Assembly: GCA_019973575.1 (NCBI GenBank)
Contig: BPUI01000001.1
Span: 2,430,342-2,494,341, forward strand
Direction of reading: 5' to 3'
Length of the DNA: 64,000 nucleotides
From: Gemmatimonadetes bacterium T265
GTDB taxonomy: Bacteria > Gemmatimonadota > Gemmatimonadetes > Gemmatimonadales > Gemmatimonadaceae
Positions 28,979 through 36,413 of the stretch are shown one piece after another; positions within the stretch are counted from its first letter, which is position 1, and each line of letters begins with the position of its first letter. The position numbers and the translations under genes were made by a program. Below the pieces are notes generated by a model. The model had not been told where the DNA came from and searched no databases. It worked only from the letters and a program-made list of their open reading frames with translations.

Positions 28979-30142
28979 CTAGCCCTCGAACGTCCCCCGG
29001 CGGACGGCCGCGCCGCCGCGCACGTGCCACACCCCGCGGGCCATCACGTCGCGCACCCCCCCGGCCGGGTCGAGCACGACGAGGTCGGCGTCGCCCCCCA
29101 CGGCGACGGCGCCCTTGCCCGGCAGGCGGAGCAGCGCCGCCGCGTTGGAGGTGATCGGCTCGAGCGCGCGGCCTAACGGCACGCCGCGCGCGAGCAGCGC
29201 GCGCAGCACGCCCGCCGCCGCGGCGACGTCGCCCACGCCCATCCGCGTCATCTGTCCCTGGGCGTCGAACACCGGGAGGCTGCCGCCGCCGTCCGAGCTG
29301 ACGGTCACGCGGTCGGCCGGCGCGCCGCTCGCCCAGTAGCGCACGAGCGCCTCGTCCGCCGCGTACTCGTCGCCCTCGCGGGGCGCGGGGAACGCCGTGA
29401 CGTCGATGGTGCAGCCGCGGCGCGCGAGCGCGACGGCCTCGTCGAACAGCGGGCGGCGGCGGTTGACGTGCGTCGGGTGGAACACGCGCGCGGGGAGCTC
29501 GCTCCGGTCGAGCGCCTCGCGCACGAGCGCGAGCCCGCGCGCGCCGTCGCCGACGTGCAGGTGCACGACCCCCGCCTTGCGCGTCATCAGCCCCGCGACG
29601 TGCGCCTCGGCCGCGAGCTTCACCAGCTCGTCGTAGGTCGGCTGGCTGGAGCGGTGGTCGGAGATCGCGACCTCGCCGACGCCGATCACGCGGTCGACGT
29701 TGACCATGTCGCCGCGCACGCTCCCCGTGATCGTCGCCGGCGGGACGTGGTACCCGCCCGTCCAGCACCACGCAGACAGCCCCTCGTCGACGAGCCCGCG
29801 CGCGGCCGCGACGAGGCCGACGGGGCCGCGCGTGTAGTCGTCGGTGCCGAGCAGGCCGACGGCGGTCGTCACGCCGCCGCGCGTGAAGTGCGAGAGCGGG
29901 ATCGGAGGAACGCGCGTCTGCGGTCCGGCCTCGCCGCCGCCGCCCGTCAGGTGCACGTGGCCGTCGATGAATCCGGGTACGAGCCGCGCGCCGTGCAGGT
30001 CGATCTCGTCGGCCCCGAGCTCGGCGGGGAGCGCGGCGAGGTCCGCGCCCATCCACACGACGCGCTCGCCCGCGACGAGTACGTGGTGTCGCCCGAGCGG
30101 GGCAGGCGCGTAGACGTCCGCGTTGCGGAGCAGGGTGAGCAT
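28979..30142 (-). CDS. iadA: Isoaspartyl dipeptidase
   Basis: A 387-aa amidohydrolase that cleaves beta-aspartyl dipeptides such as beta-Asp-Arg, the product of cyanophycinase. The binuclear metal site motif is PGFIDGHVHLTGGG (about residue 55). GGVTTAVGLLGTD, RVFHPTHVNR, TIDVTAFP and SSDGGGSLPVFD (metal and substrate ligands) are IadA signatures, and NAAALLRLPGKGAVAVGGDA closes the barrel. Length matches the family (about 390 aa). It is transcribed away from cphB, sharing a 149-nt intergenic region. No Shine-Dalgarno is visible; a TAGCAT hexamer lies only 7 nt upstream of the ATG, suggesting a leaderless message. It supplies the last step from polymer to free Asp and Arg. Confidence 0.93.
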   Translation of the reverse strand: MLTLLRNADVYAPAPLGRHHVLVAGERVVWMGADLAALPAELGADEIDLHGARLVPGFIDGHVHLTGGGGEAGPQTRVPPIPLSHFTRGGVTTAVGLLGTDDYTRGPVGLVAAARGLVDEGLSAWCWTGGYHVPPATITGSVRGDMVNVDRVIGVGEVAISDHRSSQPTYDELVKLAAEAHVAGLMTRKAGVVHLHVGDGARGLALVREALDRSELPARVFHPTHVNRRRPLFDEAVALARRGCTIDVTAFPAPREGDEYAADEALVRYWASGAPADRVTVSSDGGGSLPVFDAQGQMTRMGVGDVAAAAGVLRALLARGVPLGRALEPITSNAAALLRLPGKGAVAVGGDADLVVLDPAGGVRDVMARGVWHVRGGAAVRRGTFEG

Positions 30143-30291: not shown

Positions 30292-31176
30292 ATGACGGCT
30301 CCGTCCTTTCAGCCCGCGGCCGCCCGCGGCTGGCTCGTCCCGATCGGGGGCGGGCTCGCCGACCCGGCGATCTTCGAGCGGTTCGTCGCGCTGTGCGGTG
30401 GGCCCGGCGCGCGGATCGTCGTCGTGCCGGTCGCGTCGAGCCTGCCGCGCACGGGGCACGAATACGCCGACGCGCTCCGCCGTCACGGCGCGAGCGACGT
30501 CGCCGTGCTCGACGTGCGCACGCGCATCGACAGCGAGAACCCCGACGCGCTCGCCGCGCTCGGGCGGGCGGACGGCGTCTTCTTCACCGGAGGCGACCAA
30601 GTCCGGCTCGCGGAGGTGCTCGGCGGGACCCCGATCGCGCGCGTGCTGCGGCGCCGGTGGGCGGAAGACGAGCTGCCCGTCGCGGGGACCAGTGCGGGCG
30701 CGTCGTACCTGAGCGAGCGGATGATCGCGCGCGGGTGGTCGGGCCCGCGCCCGCGCCCGGGGATGGTCACGCTGATCACGGGGCTCGGCCTCGCGACCGA
30801 CCTCGTCATCGACCAGCACTTCCGCGAACGACGCCGGCAGGGACGCCTGCTCACCGCGGTGTCGCTCGAGCCCGACTGCGCGGGCGTCGGGGTCGACGAG
30901 AACACCGCCGCGTTCATCGCGCCGGACGGCGAGGCGACGGTGGTCGGGGCCGGCGGGATCACGGTGATCGACGCCTACAACGCGCGCCCCGTCCCGCCGG
31001 CAGCGCCCGCCCTCGTCGGGGCAGCGGCGCCCGCGGCCCAGCGGCGCCGAAACCCGCGGCGCCCGGTCGCGCAGCCGCGCGTCGACGTGCGCACGCTGCG
31101 CGTCCGCACCGTCGTGGCGGGCGGTCGGGTCCTGCTCGGCGCGCCCGCCGCGCTCCCCGCGGCCAGTCCGGTCTAG
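30292..31176 (+). CDS. cphB: Cyanophycinase
   Basis: A 294-aa serine exopeptidase (peptidase family S51) that releases beta-Asp-Arg dipeptides from cyanophycin. The nucleophile motif is AGTSAGASYLSERM with Ser134. Other family marks are GWLVPIGGG at the start, FFTGGDQVRLAEVL (about residue 98) and DQHFRERRRQGRL, which carries the conserved His/Arg region. GVGVDENTAAFI near the end is also conserved. The last 50 residues (AAPAAQRRRNPRRPVAQPRV) form a basic tail, longer than in many homologues. There is no signal peptide, so it is an intracellular enzyme, consistent with cytoplasmic granules. It precedes cphA by 35 nt in the same direction. Confidence 0.94.
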   Translation: MTAPSFQPAAARGWLVPIGGGLADPAIFERFVALCGGPGARIVVVPVASSLPRTGHEYADALRRHGASDVAVLDVRTRIDSENPDALAALGRADGVFFTGGDQVRLAEVLGGTPIARVLRRRWAEDELPVAGTSAGASYLSERMIARGWSGPRPRPGMVTLITGLGLATDLVIDQHFRERRRQGRLLTAVSLEPDCAGVGVDENTAAFIAPDGEATVVGAGGITVIDAYNARPVPPAAPALVGAAAPAAQRRRNPRRPVAQPRVDVRTLRVRTVVAGGRVLLGAPAALPAASPV

Positions 31177-31211: not shown

Positions 31212-34109
31212 ATGCGCGTCCTCGAGCAGTCCGTCTACGTGGGGCCTAACCATTACGCCCACTTCCCGGTCATCCGCCTCGCGCTCGACCTCGGCGCGTT
31301 CGAGGCGTGGCCGTCCGCGCGGCTCGGTCCCGCGTTCACCGACGCCCTGCTGGCCGCGGTCCCGACGCTCGCCGAGCACGGGTGCTCGTACGGCGTGCCG
31401 GGCGGGTTCGTGCGGCGGCTCACCGAGGACGAGGGGACGTGGATGGGGCACGTGCTGGAGCACGTCGCGATCGAGCTGCAGAACCTCGCGGGCGAGCAGG
31501 TGACGTTCGGCAAGACGCGCGCGATCGCCGGGCAGGACGGCGTGTACGACGTCGTCTACGAATACGAGCAGCGCGACGTCGGCCTCGCGGCGGGGACGCT
31601 CGCGCTCGACCTGCTGCACGCGCTCGCGGCGCCGCTCCTCCCCGAGGCCGAGCGGCCGCCCGAGGCGGCGGAGGCGGCGGCCGGGTTCGACTGGGCCGAG
31701 CGGCGCGACGCGTTCATCCGCTACGCGCAGCGGCGCGCGTTAGGCCCGAGCACCGCCGCGATCGTGCACGCGGCCGAGCGGCGCGGGATCCCCTCGATCC
31801 GGCTCAACGGGCAGTCGCTCGTGCAACTCGGCTACGGGCGGCACCAGCAGCGGATCCAGGCGACGGTCACCGGGCGCACGCCGCACATCGCGGTCGAGAT
31901 CGCGAGCGACAAGGAGGAGACGAACACCCTGCTCGCGAACCTCGGGCTGCCGGTGCCCAAGCAGGCGCTCGTCTACGACGCGGACGAGGCGGCGGAGGAG
32001 GCGGAGGGCATCGGCTACCCGGTCGTGGTGAAGCCGTACGACGGCAACCACGGCCGCGGCGTGAGCGTCGGCCTCACGACGCCGGAGGGAGTGCGGGCGG
32101 CGTTCGCGCTCGCGGCGGAGCACTCGGACGCGGTGCTCGTCGAGACGTTCATCGCCGGGCACGACCACCGGATGCTCGTCGTCGACGGCGAGCTCGTCGC
32201 GGTGAGCAAGCGCGTGCCCGGGCACGTCGTCGGCGACGGGGTGCGCACGGTCGCCGAGCTGGTCGCGGCGCTCAACGCCGACCCGCGGCGCGGGATCGGG
32301 CACGAGAAGGTGCTGACGCAGATCCGGCTCGACGAGCAGGCGTTAGGCCTGCTCGCCGCGCGCGGGTGGACGCCGGACACGGTGCCCCCCGCCGGCGAGG
32401 AGGTGATGCTCCGCCGTACCGCCAACCTCTCGACCGGCGGGACGGCGGAGGACGTGACCGACGTCGTCCACCCCGACAACGCGGAGATGGCGGTGCGCGC
32501 GATCCAGGCGGTCGGGCTCGACGTCGGCGGCGTCGACTTCCTCACGCCGGACATCACCTGCTCGTACAAGGACGCGGGCGGCGCGATCTGCGAGGTGAAC
32601 GCGGCGCCCGGGTTCCGCATGCACATGGCGCCGAGCGCGGGGCGGCCGCGCGACGTCGCGGCGCGCGTGGTCGACATGCTCTTCCCGCCGAGCAAGCCGG
32701 CGACGGTGCCGATCGCGGCGGTCACGGGGACCAACGGCAAGACGACGACCGCGCGCATGCTCGCGCACATCCACAAGCTCGCCGGGCGGCGCGTCGGGCT
32801 CACGACGACCGACGGCGTCTACATCGACGGGCAGCGCACGGTCGAGGGAGACATGACCGGGCCGACGTCGGCGCGGATCGTGTTGGGCGACCCGAGCGTG
32901 GACGTCGCGGTGCTCGAGACCGCGCGCGGCGGGCTGCTCCGCGCCGGAATGGCGATGCGGACCGTCGACGTCGGCGCCGTGCTCAACGTCCAGCCCGACC
33001 ACCTCGGCCAGCGCGGCATCGAGACCGTCGAGCAGCTCGCGCTCGTCAAGCGGACTGTCGTCGAGATCGCGACCGACACCGCGGTGCTGAACGCGGACGA
33101 CCCGCTCACGGTGCGGATGGCCGCGCACACCGAGGCCAAGCACGTCTGCTACGTGACGATGGACCCCGGGAACGCGCTCGTCGGCGAGCACATCCGCGCG
33201 GGCGGGCGCGCGGTCGCGCTCGAGACGGGGGTGAACGGGCAGATGATCACCATTTATGACCGGGGCGCGCACATCCCGCTGCTCTGGACGCACCTGATCC
33301 CGGCGGCGCTCGACGGGCGGGCGACGTTCAACGTGCAGAACGCGATGTTCGCCGCGGCGATGGCGTTCTCGATGGGCGTGCGGCTCGAGGACATCCGGCA
33401 CGGGCTGCGCACCTTCGACAGCACCTTCTTTCAGGCGCCGGGGCGGCTCAACGTCTACGACGGGCACCCGTTCCGCGTGCTCTTCGACTACGCGCACAAC
33501 GCGAACGCGGTCGCCGCGCTCGTCGACACGGCGACGCGGCTGGACGTCGCGGGACGACGGATCATGGTGCTCGCCGCGCCGGGTGACCGCCGCGACGAGG
33601 ACATCCGCGCCACGGCGCGCGCGGCCGCGGCCGGGCGCTTCGAGCACTACATCTGCCGCCGCGACGACAACCCGCGCGGCCGCGGGGGGGACGAGGTGCC
33701 GCGGATGATGGCCGACGCGATCGTCTCCGACGGCGTGGCGGCCGAGCGGGTCGAGATCGTGCTCTCGGAGGTCGGCGCGATCGACGCGGCGCTGCGGATG
33801 GCGCGCAAGGGCGACCTGGTCATCATCTGCGCCGACGTGCTCGACCGCGGGTGGCAGCAGATCGTCGACTTTGGCGGGCGCGAGCGGCAGCACGGCGCCG
33901 GCGGGACGGCGTCGGCCGACGGGATGCCGCCCGCGCTGGCGGTGACGGCGCCGCGTGCGGCGCCGCACGACCTCGCGCCCGCGGACGACGCGGCGCCGCC
34001 GGTCCACCCGATGCTCCCCGTCTCGCCGGCGCGGGGGGACGACGCGCCGTCCGCGGGCTTCCTGCGCGACGCACGCGGCGTGATGGTCGCGCGCGAGCCC
34101 AACGACTGA
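31212..34109 (+). CDS. cphA: Cyanophycin synthetase
   Basis: A 965-aa enzyme building multi-L-arginyl-poly-L-aspartate from Asp, Arg and ATP. The N domain (about 1-160) starts LEQSVYVGPNHYAHFP and contains HVLEHVAIELQ with an H-x-x-E-H pattern at 80-84. The ATP-grasp domain (about 195-490) adds Asp to the backbone: NGQSLVQLGYGRHQQRIQ, VVKPYDGNHGRGVSVG and CEVNAAPGFRMH. The Mur-ligase-like domain (from about 500) adds Arg: VTGTNGKTTTAR with the P-loop at 506-512, ETARGGLLRAGMA, QPDHLGQRG and FDYAHNANAV. The last 80 residues are a Pro/Ala-rich tail. The ATG at 31212 matches family starts. Both active domains look intact. It is followed by a small protein and a Mur-only paralogue in one direction. 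Confidence 0.96.
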   Translation: MRVLEQSVYVGPNHYAHFPVIRLALDLGAFEAWPSARLGPAFTDALLAAVPTLAEHGCSYGVPGGFVRRLTEDEGTWMGHVLEHVAIELQNLAGEQVTFGKTRAIAGQDGVYDVVYEYEQRDVGLAAGTLALDLLHALAAPLLPEAERPPEAAEAAAGFDWAERRDAFIRYAQRRALGPSTAAIVHAAERRGIPSIRLNGQSLVQLGYGRHQQRIQATVTGRTPHIAVEIASDKEETNTLLANLGLPVPKQALVYDADEAAEEAEGIGYPVVVKPYDGNHGRGVSVGLTTPEGVRAAFALAAEHSDAVLVETFIAGHDHRMLVVDGELVAVSKRVPGHVVGDGVRTVAELVAALNADPRRGIGHEKVLTQIRLDEQALGLLAARGWTPDTVPPAGEEVMLRRTANLSTGGTAEDVTDVVHPDNAEMAVRAIQAVGLDVGGVDFLTPDITCSYKDAGGAICEVNAAPGFRMHMAPSAGRPRDVAARVVDMLFPPSKPATVPIAAVTGTNGKTTTARMLAHIHKLAGRRVGLTTTDGVYIDGQRTVEGDMTGPTSARIVLGDPSVDVAVLETARGGLLRAGMAMRTVDVGAVLNVQPDHLGQRGIETVEQLALVKRTVVEIATDTAVLNADDPLTVRMAAHTEAKHVCYVTMDPGNALVGEHIRAGGRAVALETGVNGQMITIYDRGAHIPLLWTHLIPAALDGRATFNVQNAMFAAAMAFSMGVRLEDIRHGLRTFDSTFFQAPGRLNVYDGHPFRVLFDYAHNANAVAALVDTATRLDVAGRRIMVLAAPGDRRDEDIRATARAAAAGRFEHYICRRDDNPRGRGGDEVPRMMADAIVSDGVAAERVEIVLSEVGAIDAALRMARKGDLVIICADVLDRGWQQIVDFGGRERQHGAGGTASADGMPPALAVTAPRAAPHDLAPADDAAPPVHPMLPVSPARGDDAPSAGFLRDARGVMVAREPND

Positions 34110-34132: not shown

Positions 34133-34564
34133 ATGCCCACCCCGTACGAGAGCGCCCGGCTCAACCTGCAGCTCTACGACCTCCGCCGCGAGCCCGTGCT
34201 CCGCGAGGCGCGCGCGTGGTTCCTCGCCGAGTTCCACCCCGACACGTTCGAGGAGCTGGTCGCGCTCGTGAGCGGGCCGCGGAACGGCGCGTTCCGCATG
34301 GTGGCCGGCTACTGGGACATGGCGGCGTCGCTCGTCACCTCGGGGGCGGTCGACGCGCCGTCGTTCCTGGCCGCGCACGGCGAGATCGTGGCGGCGTTCG
34401 CGCTCGTCCACCCGTTCGTCGCGCAGCTGCGGGCCGCGACCGGCGAGCCGGCGTTCCTGTGCCACGTCGAGCAGGTGATCGCGACGATGCCCGATGCGGA
34501 GGCGACACTTGCGCGCCGCCGGGCGGTCGCGCTGGCCGTGGCCGCGGCACGCCGCGCAACCTGA
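34133..34564 (+). CDS. 143-aa protein of unknown function within the cyanophycin gene cluster
   Basis: Lies 23 nt after cphA and 7 nt before the Mur-only paralogue, so it is very likely co-transcribed with both. It is mainly alpha-helical, soluble and without a signal peptide: PYESARLNLQLYDLRREP, EARAWFLAEFHPDTFEEL, YWDMAASLVTSGAVD and FVAQLRAATGEPAFLCHVEQ. The central WDMAASLV segment and the pattern of helices resemble DUF4760-like small proteins, but I cannot place it in a family with confidence. A role as a granule protein, regulator or partner of the paralogue is inferred from position only. Codon use is like that of its neighbours. Confidence 0.82.
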   Translation: MPTPYESARLNLQLYDLRREPVLREARAWFLAEFHPDTFEELVALVSGPRNGAFRMVAGYWDMAASLVTSGAVDAPSFLAAHGEIVAAFALVHPFVAQLRAATGEPAFLCHVEQVIATMPDAEATLARRRAVALAVAAARRAT

Positions 34565-34571
34565 CGCGCGT

Positions 34572-36413
34572 GTGACGCCGACGCCGGAGCCGCCGACGCC
34601 CGAGGCGCGGCGCGTCCCGGGCCCCAACCTGTACGCCGCCGTACCCGGCGCGGTGGTCGAGGCGACGTGGCCGGCCGACACCGCGCGCGAAGTGCTCGAC
34701 CGGCACGTCGGCGCGTGGCGGCGCGAGGCGTTCCGCCTGCGCGACGGCCTCGGCTGGCGGGCGTCGACGGCGGTCGAACGGGCGAGCGTCGGCGCGTCCG
34801 GCGTCCACCTCGCGCTCTTCCTCGCCGCGCCGCCCGACCAACTCGATGCGGCGGTCCTCGTCGTCGAGGCGGCGTGGGCGGCCGCGGTCGCGGGCGCCCC
34901 GACCGACGCGGCCGCGGCGCTCGACGCGGCGGCCGCGGCCGAGCGCGAGCCGCGGCTGGTCGCGCTCGTCGACGCGGCGGAGGCGCGCGGGCTGGTCGCG
35001 ACGGTCGACGACGACGGCGTGAGCGTCGGCGCGGGGGCGCGGTCGCGCACGTGGGCGCGGGACGCGCTGCCGGACGTCGGCGACGCCGGGTGCGCGACGT
35101 TAGGCAACGTCCCGGTCGGCCTCGTCACCGGCTCGAACGGCAAGACGACGGTGACGCGCGCCGCGGCGGCGATCCTGCGCGCGGCGGGGCACACGGTCGG
35201 CGTGAGCACGACCGACGGCGTGCGCGTCGACGGCCCCGGCGAGGGGGACGACGCCGCACACGAGGCGCTGGAAGCGGGCGACTGGGCCGGCCCCGGCGGC
35301 GCGCGGCGCGTGTTGCGCGACCGGCGCGTGACGGCGGCCGTGCTCGAAACCGCGCGCGGCGGAATCCTGCGCCGCGGCCTCGCGGTCCGCCGGGCGAGCG
35401 CCGCCGTCGTTACCAACGTCGCCGCGGACCACCTCGGCGAGTACGGGATCGACGACCTCGACGCGGTCGCGGAGGTGAAGCTCGTCGTCGCCCGCGCGCT
35501 CCGCGGGGCGGACGCGACGCTCGTCGTCGCCGCGGACGACGCCGCGCTCGTGCGGCGCGTCGCGAAGCTCGCGCGGGAGGCGCCGTTCCAGGTTTGCTGG
35601 ACGAGCGCCGACGCGGGGGCCGACGCCGCGGCGCGGACGGCCGCCGCGCTCGCCCGTGGTGACCGCGCGTGCGTGGTGCGCGCGTCCGACGCGGGCGAGG
35701 TCCTCGCCTACCACGACGGCGCGGCGTGGCACGCGCTCGCCCGCGTCAACGAGGTGCCGATCGCGGCCGGGGGCGCGGCGCGGCACAACGTCGCGAACGC
35801 GGCGTCCGCGGCCGCGCTCGCGCTCGCGTTAGGCACGCCGCTCGCGGCGGTGCGGGCGGGCCTCCGCGCGTTCGGCGCCGGCGCGCGCGACAACCCCGGC
35901 CGGCTGGAGCGCTTCGCCGCGGGCGGCGTGACCGTGGTCGTCGACTACGCGCACAACCCCGACGGGCTCGCGGCCCTCCACGCCGCGACGCGCGCGTGGC
36001 CGGCGGAACGCCGGCTGCTGCTCCTCGGCCAGGCCGGCGACCGCGACGACGCGGCGCTCGACGCGCTCGCCGCGGCGGCGTGGGGCGGGGGACGCGTCGA
36101 CCGCGTCGTGCTCAAGGAGCTCCCGACGATGTGGCGCGGCCGCGCGCCGGGCGAGGTGCCGGCGCGGCTCCGCGAGGCGCTGCGTCGCGCGGGCGCGCCC
36201 GACGACGCGGTGGCCGACGCGCCGTCCGAGGTCGACGGCGTGCGCGCCGCGCTCGCCTGGGCGCGGGCGGGCGACCTGCTCCTGCTGCCGTTGCACGAGT
36301 CGCGGGAGGCCGTGGTGCGCTGGCTCGAAGCGCTCGCGCGCGCCGGATGGCGTGCGGGCGAGCCACTTCCGAACGGGCCCCTCGCGGACGGGCCCGGTGC
36401 CGAACCCGGATGA
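34572..36413 (+). CDS. CphA paralogue with N domain and Mur ligase domain but no ATP-grasp domain
   Basis: A 613-aa protein from a GTG at 34572. The N-terminal 100 residues echo the CphA N domain: VPGPNLYAAVPG aligns with VGPNHYAHFP, and VHLALFLAAPPDQLDAAVLV aligns with the VYDVVYEYEQRDVGLAAGTL region. The H-x-x-E-H motif is absent. From residue 185 it is a Mur ligase: VTGSNGKTTVTR (P-loop 187-193), ETARGGILRRGLAVRR, NVAADHLGEYGIDD, ARHNVANAASAAALA, DYAHNPDGLAAL and GQAGDRDDAALDAL, all matching the CphA Mur half. In CphA about 300 residues of ATP-grasp lie between these parts; here they are missing. The ATP-binding residues are kept, so ligase activity is likely, perhaps adding Arg or another amino acid. 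It is the last gene of the cyanophycin cluster. Confidence 0.88.
   Translation: MTPTPEPPTPEARRVPGPNLYAAVPGAVVEATWPADTAREVLDRHVGAWRREAFRLRDGLGWRASTAVERASVGASGVHLALFLAAPPDQLDAAVLVVEAAWAAAVAGAPTDAAAALDAAAAAEREPRLVALVDAAEARGLVATVDDDGVSVGAGARSRTWARDALPDVGDAGCATLGNVPVGLVTGSNGKTTVTRAAAAILRAAGHTVGVSTTDGVRVDGPGEGDDAAHEALEAGDWAGPGGARRVLRDRRVTAAVLETARGGILRRGLAVRRASAAVVTNVAADHLGEYGIDDLDAVAEVKLVVARALRGADATLVVAADDAALVRRVAKLAREAPFQVCWTSADAGADAAARTAAALARGDRACVVRASDAGEVLAYHDGAAWHALARVNEVPIAAGGAARHNVANAASAAALALALGTPLAAVRAGLRAFGAGARDNPGRLERFAAGGVTVVVDYAHNPDGLAALHAATRAWPAERRLLLLGQAGDRDDAALDALAAAAWGGGRVDRVVLKELPTMWRGRAPGEVPARLREALRRAGAPDDAVADAPSEVDGVRAALAWARAGDLLLLPLHESREAVVRWLEALARAGWRAGEPLPNGPLADGPGAEPG

Follow-up and report, generated by a model that had tools for sequence, protein, structure and literature searches.

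A short Mur ligase encoded beside cyanophycin synthetase is paired with an aspartate-ended tail of CphA1

The Cyanophycin Cluster of the Window

The window, i.e., the whole stretch of 64,000 nucleotides of Gemmatimonadetes bacterium T265 analysed here, carries a cyanophycin cluster made up of iadA, cphB, cphA1, a small DUF4760 ORF and the gene of a short ligase. The ligase ORF (34572-36413, plus strand) has a GTG start and encodes 613 amino acids, an ATG at 34494, upstream of the GTG, being likewise open. The features considered below are the following:

28979..30142, minus strand: iadA, isoaspartyl dipeptidase (beta-aspartyl-peptidase); TIGR01975, 403 bits, cut-off 331
30292..31176, plus strand: cphB, cyanophycinase; TIGR02069, 201 bits, cut-off 127
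31212..34109, plus strand: cphA1, encoding a complete cyanophycin synthetase (domains N, G and M; CxHxxEH present, by motif check); TIGR02068, 1102 bits, cut-off 850
33876..34106, plus strand: C-terminal extension of CphA1, exclusive to CphA1s with a short ligase in the genome; from the CphA1 comparison
34059..34106, plus strand: terminal motif of CphA1, FLRDARGVMVAREPND, Asp last; family motif RDERGVRLAREx-D
34133..34564, plus strand: small DUF4760 ORF between cphA1 and the ligase gene; PF15956, 1.7e-17
34572..36413, plus strand: short ligase gene, N-type domain and Mur ligase, without ATP-grasp
34572..35105, plus strand: N part of the short ligase, residues 1-178, CphA-type N-domain fold by prediction, without HxxEH
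35106..36341, plus strand: Mur ligase core and lid, residues 179-590; PF08245, PF02875, BLAST to the CphA M domain, model
35127..35150, plus strand: P-loop TGSNGKTT, residues 186-193; columns invariant
35346..35363, plus strand: ETARGG, residues 259-264, with the Mg ligand Glu259; invariant or nearly so
35427..35432, plus strand: Asp286-His287, equivalent of SuCphA1 D585-H586; invariant (PMC9262961)
35943..35957, plus strand: DYAHN, residues 458-462; invariant or nearly so

The DUF4760 ORF that separates cphA1 from the ligase gene is absent at the other loci examined and is no part of the ligase system in other genomes.

A Mur Ligase Half Without ATP-Grasp

The initial annotation had described the short ligase as a cyanophycin synthetase paralogue that aligns with both ends of CphA, the ATP-grasp domain between them being absent. 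The loss is borne out by profile searches, in which neither Pfam nor TIGR02068 detects an ATP-grasp, a cryptic copy included: the only Pfam matches are Mur_ligase_M and Mur_ligase_C (PF08245, 2.1e-17; PF02875, 1.4e-15; both above the gathering cut-offs), and TIGR02068 covers model positions 477-857 alone, i.e., the Mur half, with 294 bits against a cut-off of 850. The likeness to the C-terminal end of CphA also stands, BLAST aligning residues 179-572 with CphA 499-873 (38% identity over 395 residues). The central P-loop ATPase domain and the C-terminal lid of the Mur superfamily are both present, by fold as well as by profile.

In a comparison of 30 members of the short ligase family with 72 M domains of CphA, conservation proved equal in both sets for the P-loop, for the Thr and Glu that bind Mg, for Asp286-His287, for the Lys and for the lid residues, the columns concerned being K191/T192, T214, E259, R262, D286, H287, K303, N409, R444, D458, H461, N462, R491 and R522. 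This Lys is the one that is carbamylated in Mur ligases. The Asp-His pair is required for the activity of the M domain of SuCphA1, in which mutating D585-H586 inactivates M (PMC9262961). An active ligase had been predicted from the P-loop, ETARGG, DHLG and DYAHN motifs, and the alignment agrees, these columns being conserved across the family and the catalytic residues intact in the 30 members. ATP binding and formation of an acyl phosphate are expected of the short ligase.

A further set of residues (R268, E290-Y291, D440-N441, D464-G465 and K515) is invariant or nearly so within the family and differs from CphA. They lie within or adjoining the catalytic motifs, and recognition of the donor or of the acceptor would therefore be altered in some way. 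The loss of the DD[N/D]xRGR loop was considered as a sign of another amino acid and dropped: the loop is also missing in genuine CphA1s, reading QEKYLRGR in Bacteroidota and DQCQRGR in Burkholderiales, and since the DD is absent from the Bacteroidota enzymes too, its change is not diagnostic of the amino acid used. Arg is the simplest guess for the donor.

A Diverged N Domain

The claimed alignment with the N end of CphA does not hold at the level of sequence. BLAST against CphA leaves the first ~178-180 residues unaligned, Pfam finds no match to PF18921 (the CphA N domain), and a profile-profile comparison of the N part with CphA (hhalign) was negative. The argument from sequence for N-domain homology was accordingly discarded, and the support comes from the predicted fold. 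AlphaFold2, given 29 homologues, produced a confident model (mean pLDDT 90, pTM 0.91) that superposes over residues 7..591 on CphA1 chains from 1 to 872 (7lgq: Z 31.6, 551 residues, rmsd 4.0). Modelled by itself, the N part reaches a pLDDT of 91, and in a Foldseek search with this isolated model the chains of CphA1 and CphA2 were the sole matches below E 0.02. On the strength of the models, the most fitting reading of the N part is an N domain of CphA type that has diverged strongly. Residues 108-178 also have a weak in-register likeness to the first part of the G domain of CphA.

Structural prediction, proposed by the initial annotation as a check, thus returns a CphA-like overall fold, N domain included, in which the HxxEH motif is missing. 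In SuCphA1 this zinc site is the primer maker (PMC9262961); the metallopeptidase motif is kept by the CphA1 of the window and is absent from every member of the short ligase family.

As a separate observation, untailed-type CphA loci of Gemmatimonadota frequently have a stand-alone CphA N domain ORF (PF18921) of ~380-440 amino acids adjoining cphA (L017, L018, L019, L020, L021, L162, L165, L175, L176, L178, L180, L181), with HxxEH kept in those that were read.

Distribution, Operons and Age of the Family

The short ligase family is widespread in Gemmatimonadota and in alpha-, beta- and gammaproteobacteria. Full-length relatives were found by genome scan and several surveys in Gemmatimonadota, Lysobacterales, Steroidobacteraceae, and Rubrivivax and its kin, and on plasmids of Rhizobiaceae and Roseobacteraceae, where the copies are named only “Mur ligase family protein” in RefSeq. 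A divergent, AT-rich subgroup occurs in small betaproteobacterial and gammaproteobacterial genomes. We found no paper on the short ligase, and an earlier survey of cph genes may mention short homologues.

A database search for the same architecture beside cphA, another suggested check, yielded cphB-cphA-ligase operons at dozens of loci in several classes, alphaproteobacterial plasmids included. The typical same-strand order is [iadA]-cphB-cphA-ligase, and that of the divergent subgroup is cphA-ligase-cphB; besides cphB and cphA, the only conserved neighbours found were iadA or iaaA. In the tree, the whole family, including the divergent subgroup, groups as one lineage to the exclusion of every CphA M domain (SH-aLRT 83); it is therefore an old paralogue, and no recent broken copy of the neighbouring gene. 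Its branches are longer than those of CphA1, i.e., it evolves faster.

Several variants of these genes deserve to be recorded. Divergent-subgroup genomes (L124, L126, L130, L131) encode the short ligase once more at an unlinked site with no cphA nearby. In six Lysobacterales-type homologues (L043, L051, L055, L057, L063, L066), the ligase gene contains, in its linker after ligase residue ~110, an in-frame DUF559 (PF04480) endonuclease-like ORF of ~165 amino acids, flanked by the repeat-like peptides FSHREKVAEGRMREG ... PSSALRAPSPxGRR. In a 985-residue ORF of genome G150 (L133:7172-10126), beside cphB, an M domain of CphA is joined directly to an entire short ligase. Genome G009 encodes, away from cphA, a 635-residue Mur ligase protein with a CphA-like M half (L174:5359-7263) and no match to an N or G domain. 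Finally, the plasmid cphA of “Roseateles sp. XES5” (record marked UNVERIFIED_ORG) and the cphA of Shinella zoogloeoides (loci L169 and L166) are almost identical, a hint that the organism was wrongly labelled or that the gene was transferred recently.

An Asp-Ended Tail That Tracks the Ligase

The CphA1s of genomes with the ligase have a C-terminus longer by ~45-80 residues, in which W-K-Q-I-x-x-F is followed by a variable linker, a conserved end of about [IVL]-R-D-E-R-G-[VIL]-x-x-A-R-E-x-x-D, and the stop codon. Asp is the last residue in 68/68 distinct complete tails. Ligase-less CphA1s have no such motif and end in mixed residues. The CphA1 of the window, ending in FLRDARGVMVAREPND, has the tail expected of a partner of the family, and in a motif search of its own genome it was the sole match (E 7.6e-10; next best 0.39). 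An overlap with a following start codon could have produced the terminal Asp artificially; this was rejected, since the residue is encoded by GAC or GAT before TGA, TAA or TAG, with varied sequence downstream.

This pairing of CphA1 tail and ligase is a new observation. It recurred when 398 Pseudomonadota genomes were surveyed afterwards: the tail ended in Asp in all four of the newly found ligase-bearing genomes (4/4) and was present at none of the eight readable CphA1 loci without the ligase (0/8). Moreover, the tail tracks whether a genome has the ligase, not whether the two genes adjoin: it is still found where ligase and CphA1 lie on separate contigs, as in G382 (L137/L138) and in G150 (L133/L170), whose full CphA1 with an Asp-ending tail is on contig L170. 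In G541, which has two CphAs, the tail is confined to the copy adjoining the ligase.

The tailed CphA1s form one clade (100/100 in one tree, 97/99 in another), and tail and ligase have a single origin on the same branch, from which it follows that their association comes without independent replicates. Two candidates that might have changed this picture were dropped. The nearest outgroup, G529, has neither tail nor ligase and was considered as a joint loss; its position immediately beyond the tailed clade makes it probable that it never had either. The end ...SHD of a Deinococcus CphA1 was considered as a second tail; it overlaps a downstream ATG, and other Deinococcus CphA1s differ. For the CphA1s of Tatumella morbirosei and Acinetobacter, the closest relatives in the tree are tailed CphA1s; that of T. 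morbirosei (TmCphA1) carries the first part of a similar tail, ITQGERGV, and lacks the zinc site.

The Tail as a Possible Built-In Primer

The chemistry of CphA1 is established: its M domain activates the side chain of a C-terminal Asp by phosphorylating the carboxylate and then links Arg there, the G domain next adds Asp at the main-chain C-terminus, growth being C-terminal, no primer smaller than (beta-Asp-Arg)-Asp serves, and some CphA1s, e.g., that of T. morbirosei, depend strictly on a primer in vitro (PMC9262961). With an invariant Asp ending the tail beside the ligase, CphA1 itself is the likely docking partner or acceptor, and the pairing suggests a ligase that initiates or directs the polymer from the tail. 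The choice of CphA1 as acceptor is favoured because the tails end in Asp, and a C-terminal Asp is where M-type ligases work.

We propose that the short ligase would be the dedicated partner of one CphA1 clade, with a reduced N domain, an intact Arg-type Mur ligase and no remaining ATP-grasp. It would recognise the motif of the flexible tail and attach an amino acid, most simply Arg, to the terminal Asp, after which the domains of CphA1 would extend the modified tail; the tail would then be a genetically encoded primer and the polymer would begin on the enzyme. That the partner ligase modifies the terminal Asp of CphA1 and thereby creates a built-in primer is the reading that we prefer, tentatively and at less than even chances; the tail as acceptor, Arg as donor and a primer as product are parts of it that we infer. 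More tentative still is the proposition that cyanophycin may be protein-primed in these bacteria, an amino acid being attached to the ribosomally encoded Asp and the polymer growing from the synthetase's own tail by a logic resembling that of glycogenin for glycogen.

Priming is favoured by the intact catalytic residues, the shared operon, the strict pairing with the tail, the invariant terminal Asp and the known chemistry of M domains. Against it count the single origin of tail and ligase and the fact that a docking motif equally predicts a conserved C-terminal residue. The CxHxxEH primer-making site is kept in 29/31 tailed CphA1s checked, and a further source of primers may therefore be needless. 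That priming is a necessity is also argued against by recombinant TmCphA1, which forms polymer in E. coli, where the ligase is absent (PMC9262961), and the faster evolution of the ligase relative to its CphA1 counts on the same side.

The main rival, a serious though doubtful possibility, is that the tail is a docking peptide that holds the ligase at CphA1, where it would act on the growing polymer. Quicker addition of Arg, addition of another residue such as Lys, capping of chain ends or repair of unmodified Asp may then be its task, and the terminal Asp may be conserved since its carboxylates belong to the binding motif. The strict pairing fits this equally, and a conserved motif at the extreme end of a variable linker is typical of short linear docking motifs; the reduced N domain, as modelled, could bind polymer or tail, and family-specific invariants (R268, E290-Y291, D440-N441, D464-G465) sit in or beside the active-site motifs. 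However, a ligase acting on the polymer is hypothetical, and the loop change that hinted at another amino acid is not diagnostic.

The initial annotation had favoured a free ligase, adding Arg or another residue, that decorates cyanophycin or recharges polyaspartate. Descent from the Arg-adding M half, with its catalytic residues intact, and the place of the gene within the cyanophycin operon agree with it, yet the tail and its invariant Asp, which would have no role, are left unexplained and point to CphA1 as dock or acceptor; CphA1 already supplies Arg at each step, and the operon shows no enzyme for removing Arg from the backbone. We consider it possible and unlikely. Slightly less probable again is a small-molecule ligase for priming or salvage, which would join Asp or beta-Asp-Arg with Arg into beta-Asp-Arg or short oligomers for CphA1: primer supply is a recognised bottleneck (PMC9262961) and the N domain, which binds long chains, is reduced, but beta-Asp-Arg by itself is no primer (PMC9262961) and the tail again remains unexplained. 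A regulatory or degenerating paralogue devoid of ligase activity, for which the long branches and the six in-frame DUF559 inserts tolerated in the linker could be invoked, is very improbable given that the residues of the ATP and acyl-phosphate sites do not vary between the two phyla or among the three proteobacterial classes compared.

How cyanophycin chains are initiated is an open question, and primer supply restricts production in heterologous hosts (PMC9262961). A ligase confined to genomes with Asp-tailed CphA1s is a concrete candidate answer to how the chain starts, and its putative role in this beginning is testable and possibly important. Even if the tail merely docks, Gemmatimonadota and many proteobacteria would use a two-enzyme synthesis of cyanophycin, the second enzyme having escaped notice in the annotation of genomes as well as in biotechnology, where CphA1 is expressed alone.

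Comparison With Known Systems

CphA1 (TIGR02068; 7LG5, 7LGQ, 7LGM, 7LGN, 7WAE) has an M half homologous to the short ligase, which keeps all its catalytic residues, and the two are alike in the fold of the N part and in the overall arrangement, besides sharing an operon. In contrast, the short ligase has no G domain, an N domain unrecognisable by sequence and an M domain that is a separate old branch. Set against the definition of CphA1, it retains the intact M half and the N fold and lacks the ATP-grasp and the HxxEH zinc site, the CxHxxEH form of which is found in most, not all, CphA1s.

MurE and other Mur ligases share with the short ligase the superfamily, the P-loop, the position of the carbamylated Lys and the Asp/His pair. 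However, MurE and MurC align mostly from residue ~145 on, and the short ligase has no UDP-MurNAc domain; its model gives structural Z values of 20-24 with Mur ligases and of 28-36 with CphA1.

A further parallel exists in Deinococcus, where a “Mur ligase family protein” (e.g., WP_012695043.1) likewise has the ATP-grasp deleted or decayed and the Mur half intact. Unlike the short ligase, it shows a CphA N domain plainly by Pfam and lies apart from cphA or is frameshifted, and the CphA1 of its genome has no RDERG...D tail; these paralogues are an independent instance of the same domain loss. Such copies occur on Deinococcus plasmids (L168:5023-7197, L184:2939-5455, L183:10475-12974): that of D. 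deserti has 724 residues with the ATP-grasp deleted, that of D. taeanensis 838 residues with the ATP-grasp decayed, the Mur half being intact in both, and that of strain KNUC1210 is frameshifted.

CphA2 is, as the short ligase, a CphA paralogue that has lost one ligase function and the N-domain motif. It keeps G and has lost the P-loop and lid of M, whereas the short ligase is the reverse (PMC9427784); the latter has no working ATP-grasp, and its M half has both P-loop and lid, so that the initial description of the two as architectural opposites, G lost and M kept, stands. In Burkholderiales, tandem CphA loci with an M-less shorter copy were observed (L153, L157-L161, L196, L205). There, a CphA' of 730-770 amino acids lies beside a CphA of 865-900, likewise as a second CphA-like gene near cphA; it retains N and G, with an undetectable M half, and is the mirror image of the short ligase.
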